Positions 10,836 to 49,967 of a DNA stretch of 64,000 nucleotides are shown in pieces (positions within the stretch are counted from its first letter, which is position 1; the number at the start of each line of letters is the position of its first letter). Origin of the DNA: Pleurocapsa minor GSE-CHR-MK 17-07R (GTDB lineage: Bacteria > Chloroflexota > Anaerolineae > Aggregatilineales > Phototrophicaceae); assembly GCA_019359125.1 (NCBI GenBank), contig JAHHHY010000018.1, forward strand, positions 1-64,000. Direction: 5' to 3'. A program made the translations under genes and the position numbers. Below the pieces are notes generated by a model. That model was not told where the DNA came from. It did not search any database and saw only the letters and a program-made list of their open reading frames with translations.

Positions 10836-10861
10836 GGCTTCAAATCTATTCTTCATGCGAG

Positions 10862-10889
10862 CAGGGGCGGACTTGTGTGTCCGCCCCTG
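10862..10889. repeat. Perfect 11-bp stem hairpin downstream of the choice-of-anchor I gene
   Basis: CAGGGGCGGAC (10862-10872) pairs perfectly with GTCCGCCCCTG (10879-10889) around a 6-nt loop. No T-run follows directly, so it may protect the 3' end or assist the terminator that follows. Confidence 0.7.
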
Positions 10890-10900
10890 GTGGCTTCCAG

Positions 10901-10942
10901 CGGGCAGGGTCGTGGCTTTTCACGCACGACCCTGCCCGTTTT
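10901..10942 (+). terminator. Strong intrinsic terminator between convergent genes
   Basis: A 14-bp perfect stem (10901-10914 with 10925-10938) and 10-nt loop are followed by TTTT on the plus strand. It ends transcription of the choice-of-anchor I gene 8 bp before the converging capsid-fusion gene ends. Confidence 0.9.
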
Positions 10943-10950
10943 GCATCCCG

Positions 10951-33592: not shown

Positions 33593-34654
33593 ATGAGGTT
33601 TCAAAAATCTTCGTTGATTGCGCTGGCCGCCACGCTGACCCTGAGCGGGGCCAGCCTCGCGCAGGAGGCACCGCTTCGCGTCGTCGCCACGACCACGATT
33701 GTGGCCGATATCGCCCAGAATGTGGCCGGGGATATGCTCACGATTGAAACGCTGCTGCCCCCCGATACCGACACACATGCCTACGAACCGACCATCGACG
33801 ACGCCAATCGTCTGGCCGGGGCCAGCCTGCTGTTCACGGTCGGCGCGGGCTACGAAAGCTTTATCGAGGGGCTGCTGGAAAACGTCGGCGGCGATATCCC
33901 CGTAACCGAGCTGAACCAGGGCGTGGAAATCCTGGCCTTCAGCGGCGACCACAGCCACGAGGGCGAAGCGGCAGAGTCGGCGGAAACGGCCGAAGAACAC
34001 GGCGCCTTTGAGGTGCTGGGCGTGCTGGGCGAAGGCCTGACCTGCGGCGAGCATGCGCACGAAGGCGAAGAAGAACATGCCGACGAAGAAGAACACGCGG
34101 ATGAGGAACATGCTGGTGAAGCCTGCGACCCGCACACGTGGATGAATCCGCTCAATGTCGCCGTGTGGGCGCAGAACGTGGCCGATGCGCTGTCTGCCGC
34201 TGACCCGGCCAATGCCGAGGCATACGCAGCCAACGCCGAAGCCTATATCGCGGAGCTGACCGCGCTGGACGCCGAGCTGGAGGCGCTGACCGCCCAGCTT
34301 CCAGAGGATGCGCGCGTGCTGGTCACCAACCACGAATTCATGGGTTATTTTGCCGCGCGCTATGGCTTTGAAGTCGCGGCGACCGTGCTGCCCGGCGGCT
34401 CCACAGGTGCCGAGGTCGATCCGCAGGCGCTGTCCGAGCTGATCGCCTTCATCCAGGCCGAAGGCGTGCCCGCCATCTTCGCGGAAATTACGGCCAATCC
34501 GGAGCTTGCCGATATCGTGGCGCAGGATGCCGGCATCCAGGTCGTCAGTGACCTGTACAGCGAGGCGCTCAGCGATGCTTCCGGCCCGGCCTCCACTTAC
34601 ATCGACTTCATGCGCTATAACGCGCAGGTCATCGTGGACGCGCTGAGCGGCTGA
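33593..34654 (+). CDS. Zinc ABC transporter substrate-binding protein (ZnuA-like)
   Basis: A 353-residue exported binding protein of cluster A-I. Signal peptide at about 1-23 (no lipobox). The metal-site His62 (DTHAYEP), the second His in CDPHTWMNP near residue 182, and the third in 'TNHEFMGYFAARYGF' near 248 are intact. Between the first two lies a His/Glu/Asp-rich loop (about 119-178; 'HAHEGEEEHADEEEHADEEHAG'), characteristic of zinc-specific members. A canonical Zur-like operator and promoter lie just upstream; GAGAGGA is the SD. The partner permease and ATPase genes are not in the window. Confidence 0.88.
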   Translation: MRFQKSSLIALAATLTLSGASLAQEAPLRVVATTTIVADIAQNVAGDMLTIETLLPPDTDTHAYEPTIDDANRLAGASLLFTVGAGYESFIEGLLENVGGDIPVTELNQGVEILAFSGDHSHEGEAAESAETAEEHGAFEVLGVLGEGLTCGEHAHEGEEEHADEEEHADEEHAGEACDPHTWMNPLNVAVWAQNVADALSAADPANAEAYAANAEAYIAELTALDAELEALTAQLPEDARVLVTNHEFMGYFAARYGFEVAATVLPGGSTGAEVDPQALSELIAFIQAEGVPAIFAEITANPELADIVAQDAGIQVVSDLYSEALSDASGPASTYIDFMRYNAQVIVDALSG

Positions 34655-34734
34655 ATCCCGCAGGCATGATGCCATAGTTCAGATGCCGGGGCATTTTGAA
34701 GTATGCTCCGGCACCATACTTTAACGATCATTTG

Positions 34735-34979
34735 AACCGCCAAGACGCCAAGAGCGCCAGAAATTGAAGCACAGAAGCCATCTGATGGCGAACAATCAGG
34801 CCAGGCATGCGTGACACGGGTCAATATTTACACAGTCGCCAGCGAGTTGTTCATGCTGTCTTGGCGTCTTGGCGGTTAAGCCTTCTTTCGCTTTTAAAAA
34901 AGCAATGCCTATGGATCAATGTTTACACAGATGCCACTTCTGCATGATCCCTTGGAGTTCCTGGCGTCCTGGCGGTTAA
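34735..34979. repeat. AACCGCCAAGACGCCAAGA inverted/direct repeat element
   Basis: The 19-bp word AACCGCCAAGACGCCAAGA at 34735-34753 recurs in reverse complement perfectly at 34859-34877 and imperfectly at 34959-34979. GTCAATATTTACACAG (34820-34835) and ATCAATGTTTACACAG (34915-34930) are direct repeats in the same phase, so the right part is an imperfect tandem of about 100 bp. The rest of 34655-35120 holds no gene. Confidence 0.8.
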
Positions 34980-35107
34980 ACGTTCTTTCGTGCACAGGAC
35001 TTTCCTCCCAGACAGGCAAGCCCTCCGCCTCGCATTTCCCGTGCGTCATGCCCCCGGCGCCCCAATAACCGTATTTCATCCTTATTTTCCCGCACGACAG
35101 GATGTGC

Positions 35108-35120
35108 TATAGTCTTCTGC
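35108..35120 (+). promoter_or_regulatory. Possible leaderless promoter of the 35-47 kb cluster
   Basis: TATAGT (35108-35113) is a good -10 and stands only 7 nt before the ATG at 35121, so a transcript would start at or next to the start codon. No clear -35 or Shine-Dalgarno is visible. Confidence 0.45.
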
Positions 35121-35390
35121 ATGGCAGAAACGCGCACACAGCCGCCCGAGTGGCTCACCGGCATCAAATCACGCGGCATGGCCGATGCGCTGTCTACCTG
35201 CCTGGATATCACAGAACCGTTCGGGGTGCTGGCCGCCCAGATGATTTACGTCGCGTCGCCTGTGCTCGGTCTGGCAGGATGGCGCGCCGCGGCCATGGAC
35301 ATCGCCAGGGCGCTGGAACAGCCCGACGAACTCGAACGTCTGCGCGGTTGGTTGGCTTCATCAGATTCAGGGGATCCCAGACGTGGATAG
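35121..35390 (+). CDS. Small hypothetical protein, first gene of the 35-47 kb cluster
   Basis: An 89-residue protein beginning MAETRTQPPEWLTGIKSRGM. A middle segment (about 31-63, 'PFGVLAAQMIYVASPVLGLAGWRAAAMDIA') is moderately hydrophobic; 'QPPEWLTGI' resembles the W-L motifs of the giant protein in the same cluster. Its C-terminal part is charged. The stop overlaps the next gene by 8 bp, which indicates translational coupling. No family recognised. Confidence 0.6.
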   Translation: MAETRTQPPEWLTGIKSRGMADALSTCLDITEPFGVLAAQMIYVASPVLGLAGWRAAAMDIARALEQPDELERLRGWLASSDSGDPRRG

Positions 35391-36198
35391 CACCACCCGT
35401 GTGCTCACGATTCTCATCATCCTGTTCGCCTTTGCCGCTGTGGCCATCGCGATTCAGTTCGTGCGCCGCCGCCGCGAGGCATTTCCGCTGATCGCCAGCG
35501 ACGCCTATACGGCCATGCCGCAGGTGGTTGGCGCAGGCATCGAGTCTGGCCGGCCCGTGCTGATCGCCCACAACGGTGATGCGCTGGGCGGCACCAACAC
35601 CCCATTTGCGCTCATCGCCGCTGAAATGACCTATCAGATCGCCTACCGCGCCGCCGTCGGCGGGGTCGCCCCGGTCATGGCCATCAGTGAATCCACCGTG
35701 CTGCCGCTCGCCTATGGCACGCTCACCCGCGCCCACAAGGCGCGCAATCGTTTAGCCGGTTTCATCAGCCCGGACCATGTGCACTGGGCGCCCGCCGGCA
35801 ACCGGTCGATGGCATTCGCCGCACTTCTGACCGGCATGCTGCGCACGCACAATGCGGCCGGCGCGGTCTTCACCGGCAATTACGGCTCCGAACTCGCGCT
35901 GCCGCTGTGGAGCGCGACGCGCCAGCGCGTGCCCACCATCGCAGCCACCCACAACATCGAGGGGCAGGCCATCGCCTTTGCCCTGGCCGATCATGCCATG
36001 CTGGGCGACGAATTCTCGCTGTCCGGGGCGTATCTGGGCAGCGACAGCACCGCGCTTGGCGGCGTGGTCGCGGCCAGCATCCTGCGCATCGCGGTCATCG
36101 TTGGCCTGCTCATTCCCACGCTGTATATCGTGGGCGACGAAGTCACCGGCGGCGCCATCTCGCGCCTGCTGGCGGGCCTTTTCGGGGGAGGAAGCTAA
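35383..36198 (+). CDS. DUF6754-like membrane protein
   Basis: A 271-residue protein with GTG start at 35383. An N-terminal TM helix (about 6-26) and a C-terminal one (about 228-250) enclose an alpha/beta domain of about 200 residues: 'PVLIAHNGDALGGTNTPFALIAAEMTYQIAYRAAVGGVAPVMAISESTVLPLAYGTLTRAH', 'FTGNYGSELALPLW' and 'DHAMLGDEFSLSGAYLGSDS'. This matches, from memory, the DUF6754 family of Chloroflexota and other bacteria, function unknown. It overlaps the upstream gene by 8 bp and is followed after 4 bp by a polytopic membrane protein. Confidence 0.6.
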   Translation: MDSTTRVLTILIILFAFAAVAIAIQFVRRRREAFPLIASDAYTAMPQVVGAGIESGRPVLIAHNGDALGGTNTPFALIAAEMTYQIAYRAAVGGVAPVMAISESTVLPLAYGTLTRAHKARNRLAGFISPDHVHWAPAGNRSMAFAALLTGMLRTHNAAGAVFTGNYGSELALPLWSATRQRVPTIAATHNIEGQAIAFALADHAMLGDEFSLSGAYLGSDSTALGGVVAASILRIAVIVGLLIPTLYIVGDEVTGGAISRLLAGLFGGGS

Positions 36199-36202
36199 CG
36201 CC

Positions 36203-36811
36203 ATGGGCCGCATTGCCACGCTCATCGCCTCGGCACTCGCCATCAGCATCGGCCTGATCGTGCTGGTCGGGCTGCTCACGGGCAGCACCCTGGCAGGCCT
36301 GACCGGCCTCGTGCTCCAGATTGCCGTCATCACCGCCGCCATGACTGTGCTCATCGGCGTGCTCAACCTGCTGATCCTGCATCTGCGCCGCATCTTCGGG
36401 CGCGAACGCGGCATCATTTACAGCATCACGCTGGTCGTCAGCTTCCTGCTCGTCATCGCGCTGTATGTGCTTGACCAGCCGGACGCCCGCCGCGTCGTGC
36501 TGGAAGATGTGGCCGTCTCGATCGAATCGACGCTTTCGGCGCTGCTCGTGTTTGCGCTGGTCTACGGCGCGTACCGCCTGATGCGCCGGCGCGTCACCTG
36601 GGCGGCCGTGCTCTTTACCGCCATTGTGCTCATCACGCTGCTGGGGGCGGTGCCGCTCAGCCAGCTTGCCCTGCTGGAACAACTGCGCGCCTGGATACTT
36701 GCCGTGCCGGCCAGTGCGGGTGCACGCGGATTGCTGCTGGGCATCGCCCTGGCGGCCATCATCGCGGGCATGCGCGTCCTGATCGGCCAGGAACGGGCAG
36801 TACGGGAATAG
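36203..36811 (+). CDS. Polytopic membrane protein of unknown function
   Basis: A 202-residue protein with about six hydrophobic helices ('LIASALAISIGLIVLVGLLTG', 'LVLQIAVITAAMTVLIGVLNLLIL', 'IIYSITLVVSFLLVIALYVL' and others) connected by short loops. GGGGGAGGAAG lies 5-6 nt before ATG 36203. It stands between the DUF6754-like gene and the 2261-residue protein gene with 4- and 3-bp gaps, so it is certainly part of the operon. It resembles no transporter I know. Confidence 0.65.
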   Translation: MGRIATLIASALAISIGLIVLVGLLTGSTLAGLTGLVLQIAVITAAMTVLIGVLNLLILHLRRIFGRERGIIYSITLVVSFLLVIALYVLDQPDARRVVLEDVAVSIESTLSALLVFALVYGAYRLMRRRVTWAAVLFTAIVLITLLGAVPLSQLALLEQLRAWILAVPASAGARGLLLGIALAAIIAGMRVLIGQERAVRE

Positions 36812-36814
36812 CCG

Positions 36815-39800
36815 ATGACTTTCAGAAACGACCCCCCTGACAATTCGGGCGATGAACTGCCCCCCTGGCTGCGCGACGAAGGCAGCACGCCGCCGCCTGC
36901 GCCCACGCCGCCATCTTCACCGAAGCCGCTGAAGAAGCTGAATGCGCCGCCCCCCGCCGAGGACGACGACTCGTTGCCGCCGTGGCTGCGCGCCGAAGAA
37001 AAAGCCGCCTCAGACCAGCAAAGCTGGCTTTCCAGCGGCGCCAATCTGGCCGATAGCCTCGATACCGAGCTGACCTATGACGACTGGGCGGCCGTCCAGG
37101 CCGAGATGAACCGCGAAAAGAGCATCGAGGAAGAAATCCCCGATCTGTCTTCGCCGGTGCCCGATGCTCCGCTGGAGACCGGCCCGCTGGGCACAGGGCC
37201 ACTGGCCAGCGCGGGCGAATTGCCCGACTGGTTCCTTGGGCTGGAGGCCCTCGACACGCAGGATGCGCCCGACTGGTTTACCGGCACGGGGACGGGCATC
37301 CTTGAGGAGGAACCGCCAGTCGAGCTGCCACCCCAGATGCCCCATCCTGAAAAACGGCCGGATTCGATCGCGTCTTTTTTCGCATCGCTTCAGGAAGTGC
37401 CCGTTTATGACGAGCCTGAGGCCTACAACCCGTTTAACCCCGCGGAAAGCGAAGGCCCGGCCAGCGAGCGCGCAGAAGACGATGACGAGCTGCCGGAGCT
37501 GGACTGGATCGCCGCCCAGCCCTACGAACCGGCACAGATAGACGACAGCTTCCGCGGCACCGAAATGGACGCCTTCTTCCAGTCGCTCAGCGGGCAGACT
37601 GCCGCTGTGGTCACTGGCGAGCTGCGCCTGCCAGACGACATGATCGAGCCTGTGCAGCCTGCCGACACCGAGCCGGTCCTGTCGATTTCCGTGGATCCCG
37701 AGCCGCCCGCCCCGCCAACCAATGACGACATCCCCGACGTGGACTGGTTCGCGGCCGCTGGCCTGGAATCGATCAAGCAGACGCTGAATGCCACCGCAGA
37801 CGACGAGGAACCGGATTTCGGCATGCTGTTCGGCGCGGCCGAGGAATACGAAGCGCCCCGCTATCCCAGCCTGCCCGGCTTTGACGATGACGTGACCCCG
37901 CAGGCCGAGGTGGAAAGCGAGTCCGCCGAGCCGGATGCAGGCACGCTGAGCTGGCTGAGCGAGCTGGAAAACATCGTCACCTCGGTCACCACGCCAGCTT
38001 CTGAGTACCCGGAAGAAGATATCGACGTCGAGGAAGCTTTCGCGTCCTTCACCCAGTCAGACAGCGACGATGTCCCCCAGTTCAACACCGGCATGCTGCG
38101 CGACGCAGGCTTTGAAGCGCCTGAGCCAGAACCCGCCGCTGCCGCTGATGACTTTGACTGGGACGCCGCCCCAACCGCTGAAGAAGCCGAGCACGTGCCG
38201 CTGATGGCGGAAACGAACGACGGCGCGGCCGTGGGCTGGCTGAACAAAATCGATGATGAGGCGCTGGCCGCTGCCGACAACCCCATCGACGAGGACGAAG
38301 CGCCGCTGCCCAAAGGCATCGACCTGCTGCCGCCAGTCGAAAAACCCAGCTATAAATTCACCGGGATGCTGGTGGCCACCGGCCTGCAGGAGCCCGAACC
38401 AGAGCCCGCACCCGAAACGCCGGGCCCTGTCAGCGAGTGGGGCTTCCCCGAAGATGAAGTCAACGCCTGGGATGCTATGTTCCAGAGCGATGCGTCCGGC
38501 GCGCCTGCCAGTGAACAAACGATGTTCGATGCGCAGTTCGGCGGGGATGATGCCCTGCGCGACGCGTGGATGACCGATGCGCTGATCTCGCGTGCAGAGC
38601 TTCCATCCGAGCCAGCCGCGGCGGCGGAAACTGATGACTGGAATACCGGCCTGTCCTTTGACGATCTGGCCGCCAGCGCCGCAATCGCTCCTGAAGCCCA
38701 AACCACTTCGGACAACGACTTCTATGGCGTCGCGGCCGCAGAAGCCGAAGCAGCGGCAGAGTCCGCCGAGCCGGATATGAGCTGGCTGGAATCGATCGGC
38801 ACAGAAGACTACAGCCAGCAGGGTGAGGCGGTCAATTCTCATCCGCTGGAAGACAGCGGTGACGAAGGCCTGGATACCTCGCACGCATTCGGGGGATTCG
38901 CGCTCGAAGAACCGTCCAGCCTGGCCGCTGAAAACGCCCCGACGGATGGCGACATCGACTGGCTGATCGCCATGCAAAGCGGCGGCGAGCTGTCGGTCGA
39001 GACGCCGGAACCCCCGGCCACACCCCAGCAGGACCTGGCCTCGTTCGAGGCCGCGCTGTTTGGCGGCGCACAGCCCGTCGCAGCAGACCCCAGCCTGGTC
39101 GATAACTTTGACGACGACCTGTTTGGCCTGCCCACCACGGGCATGCTGACAGGCGATGTCGCGCTGGAACAGGACGCCGCCCTGATGGCCGAGAGCGAAA
39201 GCGGCGGCTGGATGGACGATGAGCTGTTCGCCGGGGAGCCTGAAGCAGCGCCCCAGGACGAGCCGCTGACGCTGGATATGGCCGCGCTGGACATGGAGCT
39301 GTTCGACGTGTCCGAGCTGTCCACGCCACCGCCGCATCCTGAAGCCATCGAAGGCTATGAGGCCGAATACGCGGCTGACCTGGCCGAGCTGGCGATTCCC
39401 GACAGCGGCACCTCATTTGCGGATGCTGGCATCAGCGACGCAGGCATCCTGTCTGACAACGCGCCGGACTTCGCCTGGGGCATCGGCATGGATGCCAGCG
39501 CCGATCCCGACGGCACGCCCGATTATGCGCGCGACCTGCTGCCTGGCAATGACTATGAAGACCTGTTCGCAGGCCTGACGCCAGAAGACGCCCTCGCATC
39601 AGAGACGGACGTGTACTCCCCTCAGTCTGAAGCCGAAGGGCTGGGCATCGGCGAATCGACGCTGAATTTCAGCGAGATGGCCGGCCTGGAAGCCCTGATG
39701 GCAGCCGAAGAAGCCGCCGCCGAACCGGTCGATAACGCGCCGATCGTCAGCGACACCAGCGCCTACAGCTTCGCCTCGACAGCCGATGCCGAGCCCGAAT

Positions 39801-42800
39801 TTGACTTCAACGCCGCCGATATGTTCGCGGCTGAGGGCGGCATCGATCATCTGTCTGACGCGCTCGACGGCCTGGAGACCGCGCAGGACGCCCTGCCGTC
39901 CGAAACAGACGCCTACAGCTTCGCCTCGGCAGCCGATGCCGAGCCCGAATTTGACTTCAACGCCGCCGATATGTTCGCGGCTGAGGGCGGCATCGATCAT
40001 CTGTCTGACGCGCTCGACGGCCTGGAGACCGCGCAGGACGCCCAGCCGTCCGACACCGACGCCTACAGCTTCGCCTCGGCAGCCGATGCCGAGCCCGAAT
40101 TTGACTTCAACGCCGCCGATATGTTCGCAGCTGAGGGCGGCCCCGATCGCCTGTCTGACGCGCTCGACAGCCTGGGCGCGCCGGCACAATCCAGCGGCGA
40201 ACAGCAACCTGAAGAAGAACAGTTTTACGTGGCCTCCGAGCTGGAGTACCCAGCTCCGCGAGTCACCGATTACGCCTATGCGCTCAGCGACAGCGAAGAC
40301 GATTTCATCGACGACGAAGCCCCGATTTCGGGCATGTTTGCCGAAGAACAGAACCTGCTGCCCGACACCGGCATGCTGACCGGCGCTGCCGATCAATTGC
40401 CCCAGGCTGACGCAGCGGGCGACGAATACGAGTCCTTCGAATTTGCGTCGTCCCTCGACGAAGAACCGGCGACCGGACTCGGCATGGGCATGGACCCGGC
40501 CCTGGACGACGCGCTGTATACCGCGGCCACCATGCCCGACGACTACACCAGCGGGCTGGAATCGGCGCTGGAGCCGGGCGCACCCGCGCAGGATGATAAT
40601 CCGTTTGGCCAGCCAGACCAGAATTTCGACTGGCAAAGCGGCCTGACCTTTGGCGATGACGCCCCGCTGGCAGACGAATCCGTACCGGGCTGGGTGCAGG
40701 CCAATGAAGACGCCTATGTGCTCGATGAAGACGCGCTCCAGTCAGACGATGCGCTGCCGGTGGGGGCAGTTGCCGGGGCAGACGAGCTGCCGCCGGACGA
40801 CTTCTTTGCCTCCTTTGGCATGGGTGCCGAGGCAGAGCAGGAACCGGTTGTGGCCGATGCTGGCGAGTTCTATTTCTCACCCGATGAAACCGCGCTGGAA
40901 TATGACGAATCGGCCCCGCCGGGCATGGACTGGGCTGCTATTGGCGCCGAAAGCGATGCCGACGACGGGCTGTCCGCCTTTGAGGCCATCGCCGGCGCTG
41001 CGGGCACCTCCCAGGCAATGCCGCCAGTCCCCGATCCGGATGCGTGGCTGGAAGCCTATCAGGCGGAACTGCCCGCTGAAGACCAGTTTGTGCTGCCCGC
41101 CGCCGAGACGCCCGCCGAAGAACCTGTCTACGGCGACCTCGACAGCTATCTGAAGACGCTCAGCATCCAGACCGGCGAACTGAAGCCGATCACGCGCACG
41201 CTGCTGGAGCCGGATGCCGACCTGGAAGCGATGCTGGAAGCGAAGGCCACCGAAGACGACGCCAGCCCGCAGGACTATAACCCGTTCAGCGGCGCGAAAG
41301 CCTTCACCGCCATCGACGCCGAAATGGCCGAGCTGGCCGACGCGGATACCCCCGACTGGCTGTCTGATGTCAGCGTGGGCGAAGTGAGCGCGACGGCCAT
41401 CGTGCGCCAGCGCAAAGACCGCGATGTCAGCGCGCTGGATGATCGCCTGCGCAAGCTGCGTCAGCGCGGGGAAAATCTGCCCACCGAGGCCGCCGCATCC
41501 AAAGACTCGCTCTCGTCGGTGCTGCCCGGCATGGAAGACACCCTCGCCCCGGCCATCATCAAGGCAACCACGGGCGTTGGCGCGGGCGGCATCGCCCTCA
41601 CCGACGAACAGCAGAAGCGCGTAGCCCTGCTGCGTTCCCTCGTGTCCACGGTCACCGATACGGCTGTCGGCAGCGGCGCTGAGCCCCGCGAAAGCGCCAT
41701 CGACGAGACCTTTGACGACACCTATTTCCCCGACTTTGGCGAAGACCAGCTCATTCAGCCGGTCGGCGCAAAGGCCAAAGCCGGAGCCTCCGAGAAAGAC
41801 CAGGCCAAAGCCGCGCGCCGAGCGAAAAATGCCCGCGCCCGTGCCCGCCGCGCCCGCCGGATTCGCTCGCGGCTGGAACGCGCTGTGCTGGCCGTCGTGC
41901 TGCTGGGCGCCGCTGCGCTGCCGTTTGTGGTGCGCGAGGCCCGCGTGGGTGATTTGCCCCCGGTGGCCTTTGACGCAGGCTCATCGGGCCAGGCCGCCTG
42001 GTCGCTGGTGGAAAATCTGCGCCCCGGCTCGGTCGTGCTCGTCGGCATTGAATACAATGCGGGCAGCGCGGGCGAGCTGGACAGCGCAGCCGACGCCGCG
42101 CTGCGTCACGTGCTCATGCGCGGGGCCTACCCGGTCGTCGTCAGCACCAACCCGATCGCGCTGCTGCGTGCTGAAACCCTGCTGGCGACGATCGCCGCTG
42201 ACGAAGCCTTCCTCGAACGCCTGGGCGTGAGCGCGCTGGAGAGCAATCGGGATTACTTCCTCGTGCAGAATATTCCCGGCGGCGCCATCGGCCTGCGCGC
42301 CTTCAGCGAGAACACCGCCTCTGTGCTGGTCAATGACCTGCGCGGCCAGGTCACCGGCCTCACGCTGACCACCCTGCGCGACTTCTCGGCCATCATTGTC
42401 GTCAGCGACAGCATGGAAGAAATCCGCGCCTGGGCCGAGCAGATCGCGGCGGCAGCACAGGCCCCCGCCATCGCCTTCGTCAGCTACAGCGCAGCGCCGC
42501 TGGCCGAGCCGTATATCGGCGTGAACAACGCGCTGGATGGCCTCGTCGTTGGCTACGCGGGCGCCTACACTTACAACACCTTGATCGGCAACCTGCCGCC
42601 TGCCCCGGTCGTCGCGTCCGAAGCCACCGAAGAAGTGACCGACGAAAGCGGCACTCCGGCAGCGACCCCCACGCCCACATCGACCATCGCGGCGCAGATC
42701 GCCCCGCGTGAGACGAATCGCCCGGCGCCGCTGCTGTTCACGCCGACGGCCACCTTTACGCCCACCAATACGGCGACCAACACGCCCACGGCCACCTTCA

Positions 42801-43600
42801 CGCCGTCGAACACCTTCACCCCGACCTTCACGCCCACTCCGGTCGTAGGCGTGGTGCAGAGCAGCCAGGCGGTCAACCTGCGCTCCGAGCCGTCTGTGGC
42901 TTCAACTGTCATCACCCAACTTGCCCCCGGCACGCAGGTCACCATCATCGGCATCAGCGATGACACCGAGTGGTACAACGTGCAGCTGGCCAGCGGCACA
43001 TCCGGCTGGATCAACCGCACCCTGCTCACCATCCCGCAGGCAGGCGCTTTTAATCCCGCCAGTCTGCTAATGAAACCGGCCGCGCAGGAGACCGCCCGCC
43101 CGCCGATCGATTTTGCAGCCACCGCGACCGCCATGTCTGGCGGGGGCAGCGCGGCACAGTCAGCCAGCAGCACGCCGACGCCGCGCCCGCCCACAGCCAC
43201 CCGTGCCATTGCGGTCGATGACGGGGAGGATACCGGCGTCGAAATACGCCCCAGCGCCACCCGCACCCCGCGCCCCACCAACGAGGCTGTCGAGCCGACC
43301 AGCACGCGCACGACCCGGGCTTCGGCCACCGCACAGGCGACCGCCACGCGCACGCCCCGGCCCACGAATACCTCCCGGCCGACCGCCGAGGTGACGCCAG
43401 AAGTCACCCCGGAAATAACCCCTGAAGCGACTCCGGAAGCCGTGGCCGTCATCGTGCCACCACCGCCGCCGTCGCCCGGCCTGCGCGACGAGCGCTGGTT
43501 CAGCATCACCGCCGGCATCATCGCATCCTCGGCCATCATTGGCGCGGGTGCGCTGCTCAATATCGGACGCAGCATCGCACGCAGGAGACGCGCCCGATGA
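36815..43600 (+). CDS. Giant acidic bitopic scaffold-like protein with an SH3b domain
   Basis: A 2261-residue protein. Residues 1 to about 1670 are strongly acidic, Ala/Pro/Glu-rich and predicted disordered and cytoplasmic, with dozens of short repeated motifs: W-L motifs (PPWLRDE, PDWFTGT, LSWLSEL, MSWLESI, IDWLIAM, PDWLSDV) and TGML motifs (at least four). Three near-perfect 50-residue copies are encoded at 39761-40190. A basic stretch (about 1665-1685) and a TM helix (about 1687-1708) follow, then an extracytoplasmic domain (about 1710-1960), a Thr/Pro stalk, an SH3b domain (about 2016-2072), a second stalk, and a C-terminal TM (about 2229-2250) with RRRRAR. SH3b may bind peptidoglycan. 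Position in the operon is fourth. Confidence 0.85.
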   Translation: MTFRNDPPDNSGDELPPWLRDEGSTPPPAPTPPSSPKPLKKLNAPPPAEDDDSLPPWLRAEEKAASDQQSWLSSGANLADSLDTELTYDDWAAVQAEMNREKSIEEEIPDLSSPVPDAPLETGPLGTGPLASAGELPDWFLGLEALDTQDAPDWFTGTGTGILEEEPPVELPPQMPHPEKRPDSIASFFASLQEVPVYDEPEAYNPFNPAESEGPASERAEDDDELPELDWIAAQPYEPAQIDDSFRGTEMDAFFQSLSGQTAAVVTGELRLPDDMIEPVQPADTEPVLSISVDPEPPAPPTNDDIPDVDWFAAAGLESIKQTLNATADDEEPDFGMLFGAAEEYEAPRYPSLPGFDDDVTPQAEVESESAEPDAGTLSWLSELENIVTSVTTPASEYPEEDIDVEEAFASFTQSDSDDVPQFNTGMLRDAGFEAPEPEPAAAADDFDWDAAPTAEEAEHVPLMAETNDGAAVGWLNKIDDEALAAADNPIDEDEAPLPKGIDLLPPVEKPSYKFTGMLVATGLQEPEPEPAPETPGPVSEWGFPEDEVNAWDAMFQSDASGAPASEQTMFDAQFGGDDALRDAWMTDALISRAELPSEPAAAAETDDWNTGLSFDDLAASAAIAPEAQTTSDNDFYGVAAAEAEAAAESAEPDMSWLESIGTEDYSQQGEAVNSHPLEDSGDEGLDTSHAFGGFALEEPSSLAAENAPTDGDIDWLIAMQSGGELSVETPEPPATPQQDLASFEAALFGGAQPVAADPSLVDNFDDDLFGLPTTGMLTGDVALEQDAALMAESESGGWMDDELFAGEPEAAPQDEPLTLDMAALDMELFDVSELSTPPPHPEAIEGYEAEYAADLAELAIPDSGTSFADAGISDAGILSDNAPDFAWGIGMDASADPDGTPDYARDLLPGNDYEDLFAGLTPEDALASETDVYSPQSEAEGLGIGESTLNFSEMAGLEALMAAEEAAAEPVDNAPIVSDTSAYSFASTADAEPEFDFNAADMFAAEGGIDHLSDALDGLETAQDALPSETDAYSFASAADAEPEFDFNAADMFAAEGGIDHLSDALDGLETAQDAQPSDTDAYSFASAADAEPEFDFNAADMFAAEGGPDRLSDALDSLGAPAQSSGEQQPEEEQFYVASELEYPAPRVTDYAYALSDSEDDFIDDEAPISGMFAEEQNLLPDTGMLTGAADQLPQADAAGDEYESFEFASSLDEEPATGLGMGMDPALDDALYTAATMPDDYTSGLESALEPGAPAQDDNPFGQPDQNFDWQSGLTFGDDAPLADESVPGWVQANEDAYVLDEDALQSDDALPVGAVAGADELPPDDFFASFGMGAEAEQEPVVADAGEFYFSPDETALEYDESAPPGMDWAAIGAESDADDGLSAFEAIAGAAGTSQAMPPVPDPDAWLEAYQAELPAEDQFVLPAAETPAEEPVYGDLDSYLKTLSIQTGELKPITRTLLEPDADLEAMLEAKATEDDASPQDYNPFSGAKAFTAIDAEMAELADADTPDWLSDVSVGEVSATAIVRQRKDRDVSALDDRLRKLRQRGENLPTEAAASKDSLSSVLPGMEDTLAPAIIKATTGVGAGGIALTDEQQKRVALLRSLVSTVTDTAVGSGAEPRESAIDETFDDTYFPDFGEDQLIQPVGAKAKAGASEKDQAKAARRAKNARARARRARRIRSRLERAVLAVVLLGAAALPFVVREARVGDLPPVAFDAGSSGQAAWSLVENLRPGSVVLVGIEYNAGSAGELDSAADAALRHVLMRGAYPVVVSTNPIALLRAETLLATIAADEAFLERLGVSALESNRDYFLVQNIPGGAIGLRAFSENTASVLVNDLRGQVTGLTLTTLRDFSAIIVVSDSMEEIRAWAEQIAAAAQAPAIAFVSYSAAPLAEPYIGVNNALDGLVVGYAGAYTYNTLIGNLPPAPVVASEATEEVTDESGTPAATPTPTSTIAAQIAPRETNRPAPLLFTPTATFTPTNTATNTPTATFTPSNTFTPTFTPTPVVGVVQSSQAVNLRSEPSVASTVITQLAPGTQVTIIGISDDTEWYNVQLASGTSGWINRTLLTIPQAGAFNPASLLMKPAAQETARPPIDFAATATAMSGGGSAAQSASSTPTPRPPTATRAIAVDDGEDTGVEIRPSATRTPRPTNEAVEPTSTRTTRASATAQATATRTPRPTNTSRPTAEVTPEVTPEITPEATPEAVAVIVPPPPPSPGLRDERWFSITAGIIASSAIIGAGALLNIGRSIARRRRAR
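39761..40190 (+). repeat. Three 150-bp in-frame tandem repeats
   Basis: Units start at 39761, 39911 and 40061 with 'GCCTACAGCTTCGCCTCG'. They encode 50 residues each, opening AYSFAS and containing EPEFDFNAADMFAAEGG. Copies 1 and 2 are nearly identical; copy 3 diverges in its last 50 bp. Confidence 0.93.
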
Positions 43601-44262
43601 CGCTCGATCAAATCGGACTGATCGCAGGGTTTGTGTGTACCCTGCTCATTTTCAGCTATCTGCTGGGCGATAATTTTCTCTATCGCCTGGCTATTTATGC
43701 GTTCGCGGGCATCACGGCGGGCTATGTGACCGTCGTCACCGTCGAAAGCGTCATCCTGCCGTGGATTCGCGGCACCTTCGGCAGCGGCGACCCAATCGGC
43801 CTGGTGGTCGGCGCGGTGCCGCTGGTGCTGGGCGTGCTGCTGCTGCTCAAGTCGGTCAATCGCTATCAGCGCGCGGGCAATATCGCGCTGGCGGTGCTGA
43901 TTGGCGTCGGCGCGGCGGTCGGTCTGGTGGGCGCTATCAGCGGCACGCTGCTGCCGGTCATGCGCGACACCGTGGAGACGCTGCGGCCGGGTGACAACGC
44001 CGAGAGCAATATAGCCCTCGTGAACGGCTTCATCATCATCGGCGGCGTGATGTGCACGCTGGTCTATTTCGGGCGCATCGCCCGGCGTGGGCCAGACGGC
44101 GCGCCACAGCGGCCGCGCCTGTTTGGCCGCTTCATCAGCACGCTGGGGCAGGGCTTCGTCGTCATCGCGCTGGGCGCCCTGTACGGCGGCGCTATCCTCA
44201 CCGGGCTGACCATCCTCAGCGAGCGCCTGGCTTTTATTTTCCTCACGATAGGCGGTGGATGA
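43597..44262 (+). CDS. Polytopic membrane protein of unknown function
   Basis: A 221-residue protein with about seven hydrophobic helices ('GLIAGFVCTLLIFSYLLG', 'LAIYAFAGITAGYVTVVTVESVI', 'GLVVGAVPLVLGVLLLL', 'FVVIALGALYGGAILTGLTIL' among others). The start ATG at 43597 overlaps the giant gene's TGA by 4 bp, and its own stop overlaps the next start by 4 bp, so three genes are translationally coupled. It differs from the polytopic protein upstream of the giant gene. No family recognised. Confidence 0.65.
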   Translation: MTLDQIGLIAGFVCTLLIFSYLLGDNFLYRLAIYAFAGITAGYVTVVTVESVILPWIRGTFGSGDPIGLVVGAVPLVLGVLLLLKSVNRYQRAGNIALAVLIGVGAAVGLVGAISGTLLPVMRDTVETLRPGDNAESNIALVNGFIIIGGVMCTLVYFGRIARRGPDGAPQRPRLFGRFISTLGQGFVVIALGALYGGAILTGLTILSERLAFIFLTIGGG

Positions 44263-46331
44263 CGGCCATGCCAGCAGCCTTAAGCTCCATCCTCGCAGTC
44301 GATTTCGGGAACGTCAACACGCGCGCCGTGCTGCTTGAGCTCGTCGACGGCACCTACACCGTAGTCGCGCAGGCTGAAGAACGCACGACCGCCGGCTTCC
44401 CCAACCACGATGTCAGCATCGGCCTTGGGCGCATCGCCCGCCAGATCGGCATCAGCACCGGCCGCATGATGCTCTCGCCGGACAACCGCCTCATCATGCC
44501 CGAACAGGCCGACCGCAGTGGCGTCGATGGTTTCATCGCCACCGCCAGCATTGGCCGACCGCTGCGCACCGTATTGGTGGGCCTGGTGCCCGAAATCAGC
44601 GTGGCCAGCGCCCTGCGCGCTGCGGCCGGCACCTACATCGACATCCTCGACACCATCACGCTGGAAGACGATCGCCCGGTGCAGGAGCGGCTGAATGCCA
44701 TCATCCTGGCGCGGCCAGACCTGATCTTCATGGCGGGCGGCACCGATGACGGCGCACGTGGCCCGGTGCTGGAGCTGGCGCGGCTGGTGCGCACGGCCGT
44801 CAGCCTGATGCGCGGCCACGCCCCGCTGGTCTTGTATGCTGGCAACAGCGACCTGCGCGACGATCTCAAGCAGATGATCGGCGGCGTGGCCGATATCTTC
44901 TTCACCGACAATGTGCGCCCCACCCGCGAAATCGAGCGGCTGGAAGCGGCCCAGGCGGAGCTTGGCTCGGCCTACAACCGCTTCGCCGGGCAGCGCGGCA
45001 TGGGCTTCGACACGGTCTCGCGGCTGACACAGCTCGGCGTGCTGCCCAATGCCCAAAGCTACCACCTCGTCACCGAATATCTGGGGCGCATCGGCGGCCC
45101 GAAATCAAACGTCATGGTCATCGATATAGGCGCATCGGCCAGCACCATCAGCGCATGGGTCAGCGGCCATGTCTCTACCAGCATCCGCACCGATATCGGC
45201 CTGGGCGCCAGCGCCCGCAGCACGCTCGATATCGTCGGGCTGGAGGCCATCGACCGCTGGCTGCCCTTCATCACCTACGAGGACGAAATCCTGTCGTATG
45301 CGATGAACAAGACGCTGCGCCCCGGCCTGGTGCCTGATACCCTGCGCGCCATGTATCTGGAGCACGGCTTCCTGCGCGCGGCCATCGCCGGGCTGGTGGA
45401 CGCTGCGCGCCCCACCTGGACGCCAAACAGCGCGCTGGATGACCTCAGCCAGCCGCTCCAGCACTTCGACCGCATCATCGGCGCAGGCGCGGGCCTGTGC
45501 AACACCGGCCGACCGGGCATGAGCGCCATGCTGCTGCTGGACGCTCTCCAGCCGCGCGGCGTCGTGCGCCTCCAGCTCGACAACGCGGCGCTCATTCCCG
45601 CGCTGGGCGCGCTGGCCCGCCTGAATCCCGAAGCTGCCGTGCAGCTCATGGATGGCGGCGGCTTTGAAGACCTGGGCACAGCCGTCAGTTTGACGGGCAC
45701 ACCGCGTGCCGGACGCGCCGCCGCCGAAGTCACCATCGTGACGCGCGGCGTCACCGAGAAGCATAAAATCGAAGCCGGTATGCTCTGGCTACACGAAGTT
45801 TCCCCTGGGACACAGGCCGATGTGACCATTCGCACGGCGCGTGGCATGAGCATCAACGGCGCACGCAAGGTCAAATTCACGATGGCGGGCGGCAGCGCCG
45901 GCCTGATCGTCGACACACGCGGTCGCCCGCTCTCGCTGGCCGTCGATGCCAAAGGCTTCGCGGCACAGCTTTCCAACTGGTACGCACAGTCCACCGGCGA
46001 CCCCGTGCGCGAGGTGTCGATTGGCTGGCTGGAAGACATGATGGCCGAGAATATCGCCGGGGTGCAGCGCGAAACCGTGACTCAGCCTGCCAAACGGCGC
46101 TTCGGCCGCGGCCCGAAACCGCCCAAAGCCAGCAAGATCAGGGGCAACAGCCCGGCCGGGATTCGCGACAGTTCAGAGCTGCCCGAAGTGCCCGTCTATG
46201 ACACGGCCAAACCTGCCTCCGGCGGGCGGCGCGGCGTGAAAAAACTCGGCAAAAAAGATGCTGCGGCATCAGATGCGCCAGCCCCACAAACGGAACTGAG
46301 TGACGATGACCTTAGAAACCTACTATCCTGA
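44259..46331 (+). CDS. GlmL/MutL-family ASKHA protein (not DNA-mismatch MutL)
   Basis: A 690-residue protein. 'SSILAVDFGNVNTRAVLLELVDGTYTVVAQAEERTT' near residue 8 is an ASKHA phosphate-1 loop, and 'SNVMVIDIGASASTISAWVSG' near residue 285 is the second Asp-Gly loop. Between them lie 'IFMAGGTDDGARGP' and 'VLYAGNSDLRDDLKQ'; later 'RIIGAGAGLCNTGRPGMSAMLLLDALQPRGVV' is typical of the GlmL family. GlmL/MutL proteins accompany glutamate mutase and are thought to reactivate or protect the B12 enzyme. No mutase subunit or B12 gene is here, so this copy has probably been recruited to another job. A basic, disordered tail (about 600-690) carries 'KKPPKASK'-like patches. ATGA overlap with the upstream gene. 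Confidence 0.75.
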   Translation: MTAMPAALSSILAVDFGNVNTRAVLLELVDGTYTVVAQAEERTTAGFPNHDVSIGLGRIARQIGISTGRMMLSPDNRLIMPEQADRSGVDGFIATASIGRPLRTVLVGLVPEISVASALRAAAGTYIDILDTITLEDDRPVQERLNAIILARPDLIFMAGGTDDGARGPVLELARLVRTAVSLMRGHAPLVLYAGNSDLRDDLKQMIGGVADIFFTDNVRPTREIERLEAAQAELGSAYNRFAGQRGMGFDTVSRLTQLGVLPNAQSYHLVTEYLGRIGGPKSNVMVIDIGASASTISAWVSGHVSTSIRTDIGLGASARSTLDIVGLEAIDRWLPFITYEDEILSYAMNKTLRPGLVPDTLRAMYLEHGFLRAAIAGLVDAARPTWTPNSALDDLSQPLQHFDRIIGAGAGLCNTGRPGMSAMLLLDALQPRGVVRLQLDNAALIPALGALARLNPEAAVQLMDGGGFEDLGTAVSLTGTPRAGRAAAEVTIVTRGVTEKHKIEAGMLWLHEVSPGTQADVTIRTARGMSINGARKVKFTMAGGSAGLIVDTRGRPLSLAVDAKGFAAQLSNWYAQSTGDPVREVSIGWLEDMMAENIAGVQRETVTQPAKRRFGRGPKPPKASKIRGNSPAGIRDSSELPEVPVYDTAKPASGGRRGVKKLGKKDAAASDAPAPQTELSDDDLRNLLS

Positions 46332-47379
46332 ACAGCGGCAGATGCTCAGCACGGCCATCATCCGGCGGGCCCGCCTGCTGCCGGAGGATGCGTTTGATGC
46401 TGAGGTGGAAATGGCCATGGGCGCGCGCGTTGGCGTGCGTGATGTGGTCGCGCGCGGCAGCACGCCCGCCCCGTTCCTGGTCATCGATGCCGCCGCCCAT
46501 TTTGGCCTGCGCAGGCACGATCAGCTCCCCGGCCTGATGACGGCCGGCCTGGGCGATTATGTCGAGCGCGGGCAGATCATCGCGCAGAAGCGCCGTCGTC
46601 GGCTGACCGCCCCGGTCACCGGGCGCATCGTGCAGGTCGAAAATGGCACCATCATCCTGCAGCAGCTTTCCGACGCCATCGACCTCGAAGCCGGGCTGAA
46701 CGGCAGCGTCATCGAAGTCCGTTCGCCGCGCGGCGTCGTCATCGAGACGATGGGCGCGCTCTTGCAGGGCGTGTGGGGCAACAACAAACGCGCTATCGGC
46801 GTGCTGCGCTTCGAGCCCGAAGGCGGCGTCGAAAATATGGACGCCGAGTCGCTCGACCTCGAATACCGCGGCGCGATCGTCATCCTGCGCCAGTCGCTCA
46901 CGCTGCCCGCCATCCGCGCCATCGCCGAGCAAAAGCTGGCCGGGCTGGTCGTCCCCAGCATCGAAGTCCGCCTGATTGACGCGGCGCTGCATGCCGAAGG
47001 GGCTATCCTGCTGACGGAAGGCTTCGGCGGCATGCGCATGAACCCGCAGATTTCCACGTTCCTCGAGCTGATGGCCGGACGCCAGGGCATGATCGATGCC
47101 CGCACGCCCGATGCCGACGGCCGGCCGGAACTGTTCATCAACGTGCCGCTGGCCAATGAACGCCCCAGCGCGCCGCTGACCAGCCTCAGCCTGCAGATTG
47201 GCATGCAGGTGCGCGTGGTGCGCGCCGATATGCCCAGTGGCTACGGGCAGGTCATCAGTATTCCGGGCGAGCCGGTCATGCTGGAAAATGGCCTCGTGTG
47301 CCCGTGCGCGCACGTGGAAATGGTCACCGGCGAGCGCGTGTTTGTGCCGCTGGGTAACCTGGAAATAGCAGGGCGGTAA
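46306..47379 (+). CDS. Protein with a barrel-sandwich-like segment, last gene of the 35-47 kb cluster
   Basis: A 357-residue soluble protein overlapping the GlmL-like gene by 26 bp. ATG 46306 is chosen as start; GTG 46300 is equally in frame. Residues about 78-110 ('GLGDYVERGQIIAQKRRRRLTAPVTGRIVQVENGTIILQQ') look like a biotinyl/lipoyl-type barrel-sandwich hybrid half with the 'APVTGRIV' hairpin but without a modifiable Lys. The C-terminus 'LQIGMQVRVVRADMPSGYGQVISI...VEMVTGERVFVPLGNLEI' resembles a KOW/SH3-like barrel. The middle alternates strands and helices. No complete family is recognised. Confidence 0.6.
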   Translation: MTLETYYPEQRQMLSTAIIRRARLLPEDAFDAEVEMAMGARVGVRDVVARGSTPAPFLVIDAAAHFGLRRHDQLPGLMTAGLGDYVERGQIIAQKRRRRLTAPVTGRIVQVENGTIILQQLSDAIDLEAGLNGSVIEVRSPRGVVIETMGALLQGVWGNNKRAIGVLRFEPEGGVENMDAESLDLEYRGAIVILRQSLTLPAIRAIAEQKLAGLVVPSIEVRLIDAALHAEGAILLTEGFGGMRMNPQISTFLELMAGRQGMIDARTPDADGRPELFINVPLANERPSAPLTSLSLQIGMQVRVVRADMPSGYGQVISIPGEPVMLENGLVCPCAHVEMVTGERVFVPLGNLEIAGR

Positions 47380-47587: not shown

Positions 47588-49090
47588 ATGACGAATAAAC
47601 CGAACGACTTCAATTTTGACGAAGACCCGTTTGGCGATGGGGATAATGATCCGTTTGGGGGCAGCGCGCAGAAGAACGATTTCTCGTTCGACGACCTGGG
47701 CGATGATTCCAGCAGCTTTATCTTCGACGACGATGATGACTTAAATGCGCTTCCCCCGGGCCTCGGCGACGATGTCGGCGGGGATATGCCCGTGCTGGCC
47801 GAAGAAGGCGGCGGCGGCACCAGCCGCACCTTCATCGCGCTGGCCGTGCTGATGATCCTGCTGTTTCTCGGCGGCCTGGCGCTGGTCGTGGTGCTGCTGC
47901 TGCGCCCCACCGGCCCGACCGACATCGAGCTGACCGCCACCCAGATCGTGCAGCTCAACGAAACCGTGGCCGCCCAGCTCGCGCAGACACAGACCCAGGC
48001 GCTCATCTTCCAGGGGCAGACGCAGACGGTGGAAGCTTTCACCGACACGCCCACCCCCACCGAGACGCCGACCGTCGCGACGCGCCCGCCCACCCGTACG
48101 CCCACCGCCACGCTGGATCCCACCGAGCTGGCCGGCACAGCGCAGGCTGAAGCCCTCGCCCTGACCGCCACCTTCCTGGCCCAGCCCACCGGCGAGGTCG
48201 TCACCCGTCCGCCCACCGTCACGCCGACGGTCTTCCAGGCGCAGTCTGAAGCCGGACTGGCCGAGTTCTTCGCCACCCAGGTCGCCTTTGCCACCGCGCA
48301 GGGGCAGGCCCAGCAAGGCATGATGGCCACCATGATGGCCGGCTCTGACCCGAACGCGATGGCTGGCGCCCAGGCAACGATGGATGCCATGGTCAACGTG
48401 GGCGGCAACGATGTCGCCACCGCGATTGCCGAGGTCGATGCCGGCCTGGCCAATTTCGCCCAGACTGCCGCGCCGATCGCCACCCAGCTTGCCCAGGGCA
48501 CGCTCGATGCGCCGTCCACCCAGGCAGCTCTCAACCAGATCGTCGGACAGGCCACCTTCGCCGCGCAGGCCACGCAGGCCGCGGTCGAGATCATGATGGC
48601 CGAAATGACGCCTGAAATGACCGAAGAAGCGCCCGGTACGCAGGTCGCGATGGTGCCCGCGCTGGCCCAGACTGCCGTGTTCGCGGCCACGCAGAATGCC
48701 CAGCAGGGCTCTGCCTTCGTCGCCACGGCTGAAGGCCAGGCCACGCAGATCGCGCTGGCCACCCGCTCCGCGCTGGTGGAACAGGCGCTCAGCGGCGTGC
48801 TGATCGTGCAGGCGCCCACCACCCCGGCGCTCAGCGGCATTAACCAGACGGCCACCGCCATCGCCCAGGCGTTCCAGGCGGCCACCCGTGAAGTCCTGCC
48901 CACGCTGGAGCCGGGCGTACAGCCCACGCTCGCCTTCCCGACGCTCATCCCGACGCCGAACATCCTGCCCGATACCGGCCTGTTTGATGAAGCCAGCGGC
49001 GGCCTCGGCTACGTGGGCATCGGCATGATGGTGGTCGGCCTGCTCGGTGTGGCCGCCATCGCCCGCTACCTGCGCCGCAAGGAAGACTAG
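47588..49090 (+). CDS. Bitopic Ala/Thr-rich surface protein with LPDTG-TM-RRK tail
   Basis: A 500-residue protein. An acidic, Asp/Phe-rich cytoplasmic N-terminus ('NDFNFDEDPFGDGDNDPFGG') lasts to about residue 80; a TM helix lies at about 85-107. A Thr/Pro stalk ('TPTPTETPTVATRPPTRTPT') and a long Ala/Gln/Thr-rich helical region follow. The end is 'LPDTG' near residue 461, a short linker, a hydrophobic helix (about 474-492) and RRKED. This is the layout of a Gram-positive sortase signal, in a protein that also has an N-terminal membrane anchor. Both ends are therefore anchored unless the tail is cleaved. A terminator follows at 49109. Confidence 0.75.
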   Translation: MTNKPNDFNFDEDPFGDGDNDPFGGSAQKNDFSFDDLGDDSSSFIFDDDDDLNALPPGLGDDVGGDMPVLAEEGGGGTSRTFIALAVLMILLFLGGLALVVVLLLRPTGPTDIELTATQIVQLNETVAAQLAQTQTQALIFQGQTQTVEAFTDTPTPTETPTVATRPPTRTPTATLDPTELAGTAQAEALALTATFLAQPTGEVVTRPPTVTPTVFQAQSEAGLAEFFATQVAFATAQGQAQQGMMATMMAGSDPNAMAGAQATMDAMVNVGGNDVATAIAEVDAGLANFAQTAAPIATQLAQGTLDAPSTQAALNQIVGQATFAAQATQAAVEIMMAEMTPEMTEEAPGTQVAMVPALAQTAVFAATQNAQQGSAFVATAEGQATQIALATRSALVEQALSGVLIVQAPTTPALSGINQTATAIAQAFQAATREVLPTLEPGVQPTLAFPTLIPTPNILPDTGLFDEASGGLGYVGIGMMVVGLLGVAAIARYLRRKED

Positions 49091-49147: not shown

Positions 49148-49226
49148 ATGCCCCGACAAATTCGACCGAATGCCTGTCGCCTGCTACACTTGGCGCTATC
49201 GACCGCTGACAGCCTCGAAACCTCAT

Positions 49227-49967
49227 ATGCGCTTTGATACCCACCGCGTTGGCGCGTTTCTCGTAGACGCCCTGCAGAAGGCGCGTCCCCGCCTTGAAGT
49301 CATCGTCGACGACGGCGATATCATCCACGTCCGCGTGCATCCCAATCACACGGCCGCCATCTATCTGGTCGAGACCGCGATCTCCACCGCTGAAATCCGC
49401 TACCTGATCGAGACCAACACCCGCGACGGCGTGTATACGCTATTCGTGCTGTGGGGAGAGCTGCTGATGCCGCAGCACGGGCAGCAGTTCCGCCCCTACG
49501 ACTGGATGCACACGCTGCTGGCCCTGTACGGCGACAAAATCTACACGTTTGACCCGTATCTGGGCGATGACCTGGTCTACCCGGTGCACTTTGAGCGCCA
49601 GGCGGGCAAGTACACGCGCAATATTCGCTATGGCAAGCCCATCGACGCCACAAAGCTGTCGTGCGCGCATGTGCAGGTGCACACAGCCGGGCTGAACGGC
49701 GGCTGCAACGTGGCTGAATTTGAGCCACGCTGGACGCATGGGGTAGCCACGGCCGAGGCCATCCTCGCGCACGACCCGCTGGCCGAGTATTTCACACTGC
49801 TCGGCATCGAGCGCAAGGCCACGCCAGAGCTGACGCGCATCGCCGTCAAACATGCCTTCCGGCGCATGGCGCGCCGCTTTCACCCCGACGTCAATGCCTC
49901 GCCCGGCGCGGCCGACCACATGCGCCGCATCAACGAAGCGTATCAGGTGCTGCTGCGCGAAATCTAG
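49227..49967 (+). CDS. C-terminal J-domain protein
   Basis: A 246-residue protein. I chose ATG 49227 (MRFDTHRVGAFLVD) as the start. Residues about 1-175 form a mixed alpha/beta N-terminal domain of unknown type ('LEVIVDDGDIIHVRVHPNHTAAIYLVETAI'); the last about 70 residues are a J-domain, 'YFTLLGIERKATPELTRIAVKHAFRRMARRFHPDVNASP', with the catalytic HPD tripeptide intact. It should stimulate a DnaK-type Hsp70. The domain order, J-domain at the C-terminus, is the reverse of DnaJ. Partners unknown. Confidence 0.82.
   Translation: MRFDTHRVGAFLVDALQKARPRLEVIVDDGDIIHVRVHPNHTAAIYLVETAISTAEIRYLIETNTRDGVYTLFVLWGELLMPQHGQQFRPYDWMHTLLALYGDKIYTFDPYLGDDLVYPVHFERQAGKYTRNIRYGKPIDATKLSCAHVQVHTAGLNGGCNVAEFEPRWTHGVATAEAILAHDPLAEYFTLLGIERKATPELTRIAVKHAFRRMARRFHPDVNASPGAADHMRRINEAYQVLLREI

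Follow-up and report, generated by a model that had tools for sequence, protein, structure and literature searches.

A conserved Chloroflexota gene cluster encoding a MutL-family ASKHA protein, membrane proteins and a motif-bearing scaffold that looks like an undescribed membrane-linked machine

The MutL/GlmL ATPase family is known from the upkeep of B12-dependent enzymes, and the ASKHA proteins PilM and FtsA grip short peptides of their membrane partners. Here we describe a cluster of seven genes (g1-g7, positions 35121-47379) and its downstream neighbor (g8) in Pleurocapsa minor GSE-CHR-MK 17-07R (Chloroflexota), located on contig JAHHHY010000018.1 within a window of 64,000 nucleotides (the whole stretch of DNA that was analyzed). 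In this cluster a MutL-family protein (g6) is encoded together with membrane proteins and a scaffold (g4) that carries arrays of a short motif. The single proteins belong to known families, but no system of this composition can be named, and the cluster looks like an undescribed membrane-linked machine. As supposed by an earlier reading made from the letters of the DNA without database searches (hereafter the sequence-only reading), no description of a system so composed was found in the open literature (subscription papers and preprints lay outside the scope of the search).

Compared with GlmL/MutL proteins, g6 aligns along nearly the entire Pfam model (PF13941, positions 1-447 of 450; 184.1 bits against a cut-off of 27), which places it in the MutL family. 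However, it scores below three NCBIfam cut-offs (GlmL NF040745, 72.3 bits against 475; TIGR01319, 59.5 against 204.05; NF040744, 54.9 against 600), it is longer by a conserved C-terminal extension beyond the MutL model that holds the sequence VIDARGRP, and it is accompanied by g7, by motif scaffolds and by membrane proteins rather than by a B12-dependent mutase. The likeness to PilM and FtsA lies in an ASKHA protein whose gene stands with those of membrane proteins, one of which here has a motif-rich inner tail. Unlike PilM and FtsA, g6 belongs to another ASKHA family (11.6 bits against a cut-off of 133 for PilM TIGR01175, E 0.099), the conserved unit contains no pilus or divisome genes, and the motif is present in many copies instead of as one peptide.

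The seven open reading frames (ORFs) all lie on the + strand, and neighbors overlap by 4-26 base pairs (bp) or sit 3-4 bp apart; the start codons are the analyst's choice. The co-directional, tightly coupled arrangement described in the sequence-only reading is thus borne out, and its seven genes are real, but it left out g8, an eighth gene of the unit. The features are listed below (aa, amino acids; TM, transmembrane segment).

g1, 35121..35390, + strand: ORF for a small protein of 89 aa
g2, 35383..36198, + strand: DUF6754 protein with two TM (PF20539, E 4.1e-13)
g3, 36203..36811, + strand: six-TM protein, no Pfam family
g4, 36815..43600, + strand: protein of 2261 aa with a long acidic N-terminal region, TM1, a Rossmann-like domain, a T/P-rich linker with SH3b, TM2 and a short basic tail
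g4 residues 1-1675, 36815..41839, + strand: disordered region, predicted to be cytoplasmic, that holds W[LFIM] motifs and TGML repeats
g4 TM1, about residues 1688-1706, 41876..41932, + strand: predicted TM (center 1697), a helix in the model
g4 predicted extracytoplasmic Rossmann-like domain, about residues 1720-1925, 41972..42589, + strand: from an AlphaFold2 model (predicted local distance difference test, pLDDT, 90.9), fold searches and flanking charge counts
g4 SH3b, residues 2019-2070, 42869..43024, + strand: SH3_3, E 8.9e-12
g4 TM2, about residues 2230-2248, 43502..43558, + strand: predicted TM (center 2239)
g5, 43597..44262, + strand: polytopic protein, no Pfam family
g6, 44259..46331, + strand: MutL-family ASKHA protein (PF13941, E 5.3e-54) with an extra C-terminal region holding VIDARGRP
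g7, 46306..47379, + strand: protein with barrel-sandwich hybrid (about residues 1-147), swivel beta/beta/alpha (about 130-281) and KOW/Tudor-like (294-357) domains
g8, 47588..49090, + strand: LPxTG-like anchor protein with a TM, a T/P-rich region, LPDTG, a second TM and a basic tail

In a Pfam scan, the three domains foreseen from the letters (DUF6754 in g2, a bacterial SH3 in g4 and MutL in g6) all lie above cut-off, g7 gives only sub-threshold barrel-sandwich matches, and g1, g3 and g5 of the window have no Pfam family above cut-off.

For the comparison of loci, 70 stretches fetched around g6 matches, 80 named loci and the window were combined into 151 sources, over which one profile per gene was run (fetched loci bear L numbers and surveyed genomes G numbers, the window genome being G000 and its contig C3). 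The named loci, all titled Chloroflexota and picked by similarity, are the best 80 of at least 542 g6 relatives in a contig scan; many loci end at contig edges, so that the counts are lower bounds. Relatives were found in 84 sources for g1, 87 for g2, 89 for g3, 110 for g4, 113 for g5, 151 for g6 (by design), 130 for g7 and 89 for g8. Gene order and strand are identical in all 83 fetched loci in which g1-g6 were detected (three pairs come from the same contig, leaving 80 distinct), 70 of which also show g7 and 62 g8.

A survey of 201 Chloroflexota genomes complements these loci; the genomes are not independent, kinship is uncounted in all genome counts, and the Fisher P values ignore descent. 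A single-sequence search detected g6 in 91 genomes and a profile search in 121, the profile also picking up true GlmL-like proteins (e.g., in G089 and G178). g7 occurs in 113 of the 201 genomes, 112 of them with g6 and one without; nine of the 121 g6 genomes, GlmL-like cases among them, lack g7. Where both are present, g6 and g7 are adjacent (no more than 1.5 kb apart) in 94 of 112 genomes; among the other 18, the two genes fall on separate contigs, close to an end, in one genome, and in 17, from four families (f21, f31, f57 and f60), g1-g6 are together and g7 is elsewhere. DUF6754 was found in 44 of the 201 genomes, all 44 also with g6, and a search of 14 control genomes found none. Conservation of order, strand and co-occurrence indicates that the cluster is not a one-species accident, and the expectation that the genes would stand together across distant genera held within Chloroflexota. 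It is very improbable that the cluster is merely a set of unrelated housekeeping genes that common descent has held in one operon: in favor of this, the best 80 loci were picked for similarity, but the 201-genome survey, which was not so picked, shows the co-occurrence of g6, g7 and DUF6754, and g7 is retained in the 17 genomes of four families even though it no longer lies beside g6.

The motif E-[LIV]-P-D-W-L-x-x-L recurs in the g4 relatives, within a long acidic region that usually follows a zinc ribbon. The pattern P[DEASGP]W[LMFI] accounts for 524 of the 935 tryptophans in 68 g4 N-terminal regions, against a shuffled mean of 10.6 and maximum of 19 (200 shuffles, with kinship among the sequences uncorrected). 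Window g4 has a looser form, with five strict P-x-W motifs (shuffled mean 0.2, maximum 3) and W[LFIM] at 15 of 24 tryptophans (shuffled mean 4.1, maximum 12); TGML occurs four times within 36815-41839, where shuffles expect 0.002, and once in the nearest relative, L102. One PPEWL motif is also present in window g1, the only copy among the 84 g1 relatives to have it. One or two zinc ribbons usually begin the g4 relatives (at least two CxxC pairs within the first 150 residues in 49 of 70 rows, many others being cut by contig ends), and L153 g4 matches a zinc-ribbon-type family in Pfam (DUF7577, E 1.8e-8); window g4 has no zinc ribbon. From the lysine plus arginine (K+R) counts flanking TM1 (2.67 before, 0.88 after), the motif region is predicted to lie inside and the Rossmann-like domain outside. 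The sequence-only reading had portrayed g4 as a giant bitopic scaffold with an outer SH3b domain. The SH3b is present and predicted to be outside in the window, but with two predicted TM the protein is not bitopic, and neither great length nor SH3b is a general trait of g4: the median length of 69 relatives is 823 aa (some being cut at contig ends), and SH3b recurs in L102 (Pfam, E 3e-10) but the Pfam hits of L153 include no SH3 family, so that both are better regarded as embellishments within the family.

Thirty-two fetched loci lack g2, g3 and g5, and 30 were analyzed after two with too little upstream sequence had been dropped. Immediately upstream of g6, 19 of the 30 encode a zinc-ribbon protein (18) and/or a motif protein, with both features in 14; among 1147 other flanking ORFs, at least two motifs occur in eight, a zinc ribbon in 16, and both in none. 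As g6 and g7 are left next to a motif scaffold where g2, g3 and g5 are missing, we infer that the motif reader would be g6 or g7. Judged from these sequences, the most widely conserved part of the system is g6 with g7, often accompanied by a cytoplasmic-looking zinc-ribbon or motif protein, and the envelope genes may therefore be an elaboration of a cytoplasmic core. The suggestion of a cell-envelope machine was a fair guess, given the two polytopic proteins, the predicted outer domain, SH3b and the LPxTG-like neighbor, but it did not capture this widest-kept part.

The motif extends to TPR proteins encoded elsewhere. In genome G028, matches to a DNA motif pattern cluster at two sites, g4 and a TPR protein (34 matches against 16 in a reversed control). 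Relatives of this TPR protein occur in 31 of 31 near relatives and in 67 of the 201 genomes, 64 of which have g6 (these matches rest on the TPR part), and in five of seven genomes checked (G028, G000, G226, G221 and G124) the TPR protein is enriched in the motif, with nine motif repeats in the window-genome protein against 0.2 in shuffles. TPR proteins thereby appear, by their sequences, to widen the motif network in many lineages, not including Chloroflexia. The window genome encodes, on contig C19 (L205:4105-9249 and 9265-11346), two adjacent TPR proteins of 1714 and 693 aa with PDWL-type motifs.

Seven residues are invariant in eight g6 sequences (G17, T21, D289, G291, G410, D552 and R554), the first five of them phosphate-loop residues; in a wider set of 18 sequences, at least two (L058 and L064) deviate in the first phosphate loop. 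g6 is thus an ASKHA protein in which the nucleotide-site residues are largely kept, and ATPase activity is predicted. The search for relatives of solved structure with the g6 profile yielded one chain only (E 0.35). Tails of g6 that hold PDWL motifs are seen in loci of three Chloroflexia-like families (e.g., L043, L048 and L099), any match being found in six of 151 sources, one of them inside the domain. In L043, L048, L099, L100 and L101 the tail has two PDWL-type motifs, which might dock on the protein's own core.

The barrel-sandwich and KOW-like character ascribed to g7 from its sequence is confirmed in its relatives and in a confident model. RnfC_N is matched by 28 of 46 g7 sequences, KOW by 15 and NQRA_N by 12 (window g7 matches RnfC_N with E 0.0052, below the Pfam cut-off), and the model (pLDDT 88.4) has a barrel-sandwich domain like BCCP (Z 8.4) and a Tudor/KOW-like domain (Z 8.3). 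Between them lies a swivel beta/beta/alpha domain that resembles UPF0107 and rifampin phosphotransferase (Z 10.0), RraA (Z 9.3) and diol dehydratase reactivase (Z 7.9, 112 residues). In the reactivase this fold is found within the ASKHA protein (2d0o), whereas g7 is a separate protein, and the shared fold shows no function. The RnfC_N and NQRA_N matches, together with two six-TM proteins of about 200 aa (g3 and g5), would suit an Rnf/Nqr-type membrane complex, driven by redox reactions or ions, in which g7 is the RnfC/NqrA-like subunit. We regard this as the most improbable of the explanations considered: the Pfam scan found neither an iron-sulfur nor a flavin family among the products of the unit, g3 lacks cysteine altogether, g5 contains two cysteines, and the N-terminal barrel-sandwich domain, below cut-off in window g7, is the only shared part, further Rnf/Nqr domains or redox subunits not having been found here.

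The family membership of g6 and the reactivase-like swivel domain of g7 would also be in keeping with g6 acting as a genuine GlmL-type chaperone or reactivase for a B12-dependent mutase, with the cluster as a mutase-maintenance unit. Upstream of the cluster, a mutase-B12-subunit-like gene was read by eye in 12 of 151 sources (2 of the 12 on the same strand) and a MeaB-like gene in 12 (none on the same strand), and methylmalonyl-CoA mutase is somewhat commoner in g6 genomes (77 of 91) than in others (77 of 110; Fisher P 0.019, a weak association). However, the GlmL score of g6 falls far below its cut-off, no B12 mutase is among the eight neighboring products scanned in the window, and 14 of the 91 g6 genomes of the single-sequence set have no methylmalonyl-CoA mutase (other B12 mutases were not searched); g6 thus appears to be no typical mutase helper. 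With membrane proteins and motif scaffolds as the conserved partners, a mutase-maintenance unit is improbable. The sequence-only reading was right that this locus has no mutase partner, but the genome does hold one methylmalonyl-CoA mutase, on another contig. The B12-subunit-like and MeaB-like genes (L152, L145 and similar loci) lie about 6-7 kb upstream of g6 and probably reflect local synteny of one clade. L068 and L065 encode GlmL-sized MutL proteins without g7 that are likely ordinary GlmL relatives; the L068 genome also has the clustered form.

Among the small and membrane proteins, TM were counted in relatives by plain hydropathy and topology was read from K+R residues flanking the TM. 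No TM is found in 49 of 52 g1 relatives. g2 scores 49.5 bits against a PF20539 cut-off of 27 and is a member of DUF6754, a family without known function; no paper naming DUF6754 was found in the open literature, and the search for relatives of solved structure gave a single match (E 0.24). K+R counts around its first TM (0.49 before and 4.23 after, 53 relatives) predict that the globular part of g2 is cytoplasmic. Six TM are found in 51 of 55 g3 relatives and 43 of 73 g5 relatives, in agreement with the two polytopic proteins noted from the sequence, and family searches over 39 g3 and 37 g5 members gave just scattered single-member matches. No homology was detected between g3 and g5 (1.2) or between the outer domain of g4 and DUF6754 (hhalign probability 6.1).

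An ASKHA protein encoded in fixed order beside polytopic and two-TM proteins, together with the weak, below-cut-off match of g6 to PilM, is what would be expected if g6 were an ATPase that assembles an envelope apparatus in the manner of PilM or FtsA, with the membrane proteins forming a secretion, pilus-like or division complex and the motif arrays serving as a mere flexible docking tail. This is the nearest rival explanation, and we consider it rather unlikely: neither pilin, secretin, secretion ATPase nor peptidoglycan enzyme was found in the conserved unit, and the g6-g7 pair persists in loci without g2, g3 and g5.

The outer side of g4 suggests a further explanation. Since g4 joins a predicted outer ligand-type fold, whose matches are nucleotide- or sugar-phosphate-binding folds, to a long inner motif array, the Rossmann-like domain (with SH3b) could detect a wall or nutrient signal and pass it to motif-bearing cytoplasmic partners via g6 and g7. 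Such a sensing or signaling hub seems distinctly unlikely, as the matches are generic Rossmann-like (best Z 9.7, with many unrelated families close behind) and the Pfam scan found no kinase, cyclase or regulator domains in the unit. An assignment of the outer domain to one Rossmann-like family was rejected for want of a clear best match in the fold searches, and a profile search for relatives of solved structure gave none at E <=1.

g8 has a strict [LVIF]PxTG in 59 of its 89 relatives, several others being cut or having a variant motif; window g8 scores 12.4 bits against a cut-off of 20 for Gram_pos_anchor, and the window genome holds one sortase. Two genomes of one genus (G168 and G200) have no sortase and no g8 beside the cluster (L040 and L037). 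Locus L033 also has no g8 beside the cluster, and its genome (G176) has sortases, as is likewise seen for Chloroflexia-like loci (L083 ends soon after g7); no conclusion is drawn on a link between g8 and sortase.

To account for these features, we tentatively propose an ATP-driven scaffold machine, in which g6 and g7 would recognize the motifs and, at the expense of ATP, build or rearrange a scaffold that is itself coupled to an envelope complex; this is possible, if on balance unlikely. g6 and/or g7 would bind the P-D-W-L type motif, with PilM and FtsA as the model for the grip of g6, and this grip on the motif arrays would switch as g6 binds and hydrolyzes ATP. The switch would cluster or release g4, and in many genomes also the motif-bearing TPR protein, at the membrane. 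g2, g3 and g5 would be the membrane seat of the assembly, the outer domain, SH3b (in the window) and g8 would tie it to the wall, and the whole would organize part of the cell surface from inside. A more specific claim, which we hold to be rather unlikely as well, is that PDWL motifs form a code: arrays on the membrane scaffold and TPR proteins would be read by the MutL-family ASKHA ATPase with g7, giving a membrane-attached, perhaps condensate-like hub whose state is passed to the cell surface.

Gene order, co-occurrence, motif arrays, folds and predicted topology are read from the sequences themselves, and several points weigh against the proposed machine. That g6 or g7 binds the motif is a prediction, and the surface role draws on topology, g8 and SH3b, the latter two of which are not universal. 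Among the 30 loci without g2, g3 and g5, 11 have no scaffold before g6, two of them with a GlmL-sized g6 (461 and 469 aa) and no g7. In two Chloroflexia-like genomes (G118 and G166) the TPR relatives have no motif, and 57 of the 121 g6 genomes have no TPR match at E 1e-15; a TPR match alone does not in any case show the motif.

No conserved neighbor outside g1-g8 reaches beyond 41 of 151 sources (read by eye); a broad set of response-regulator-like genes forms the largest group, followed by a sugar-phosphomutase-like gene in 26 sources, mostly on the opposite strand. The window's own neighbors, a gene at 33593-34654 and a protein at 49170-49967 (downstream of g8, with a DnaJ domain at its C-terminus), have no relative among the 70 loci. 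Before g1, the intergenic stretch at about 34700-35000 has repeated, partly inverted pieces related to CTTGGCGTCTTGGCGGTTAA, and a TATAGT hexamer stands about 10 bases upstream of the g1 start (35104-35121), which could mean a leaderless transcript.

If the proposed reading is right, much of a large, poorly understood phylum would share a dedicated machine linking cytoplasm and envelope; should the motif-code claim also be true, an ATPase family devoted to enzyme repair would have been recruited as a motif-reading envelope organizer. The reading names testable partners for DUF6754, for several unnamed membrane families and for giant disordered proteins, and the motif code can be tested with peptides in vitro.

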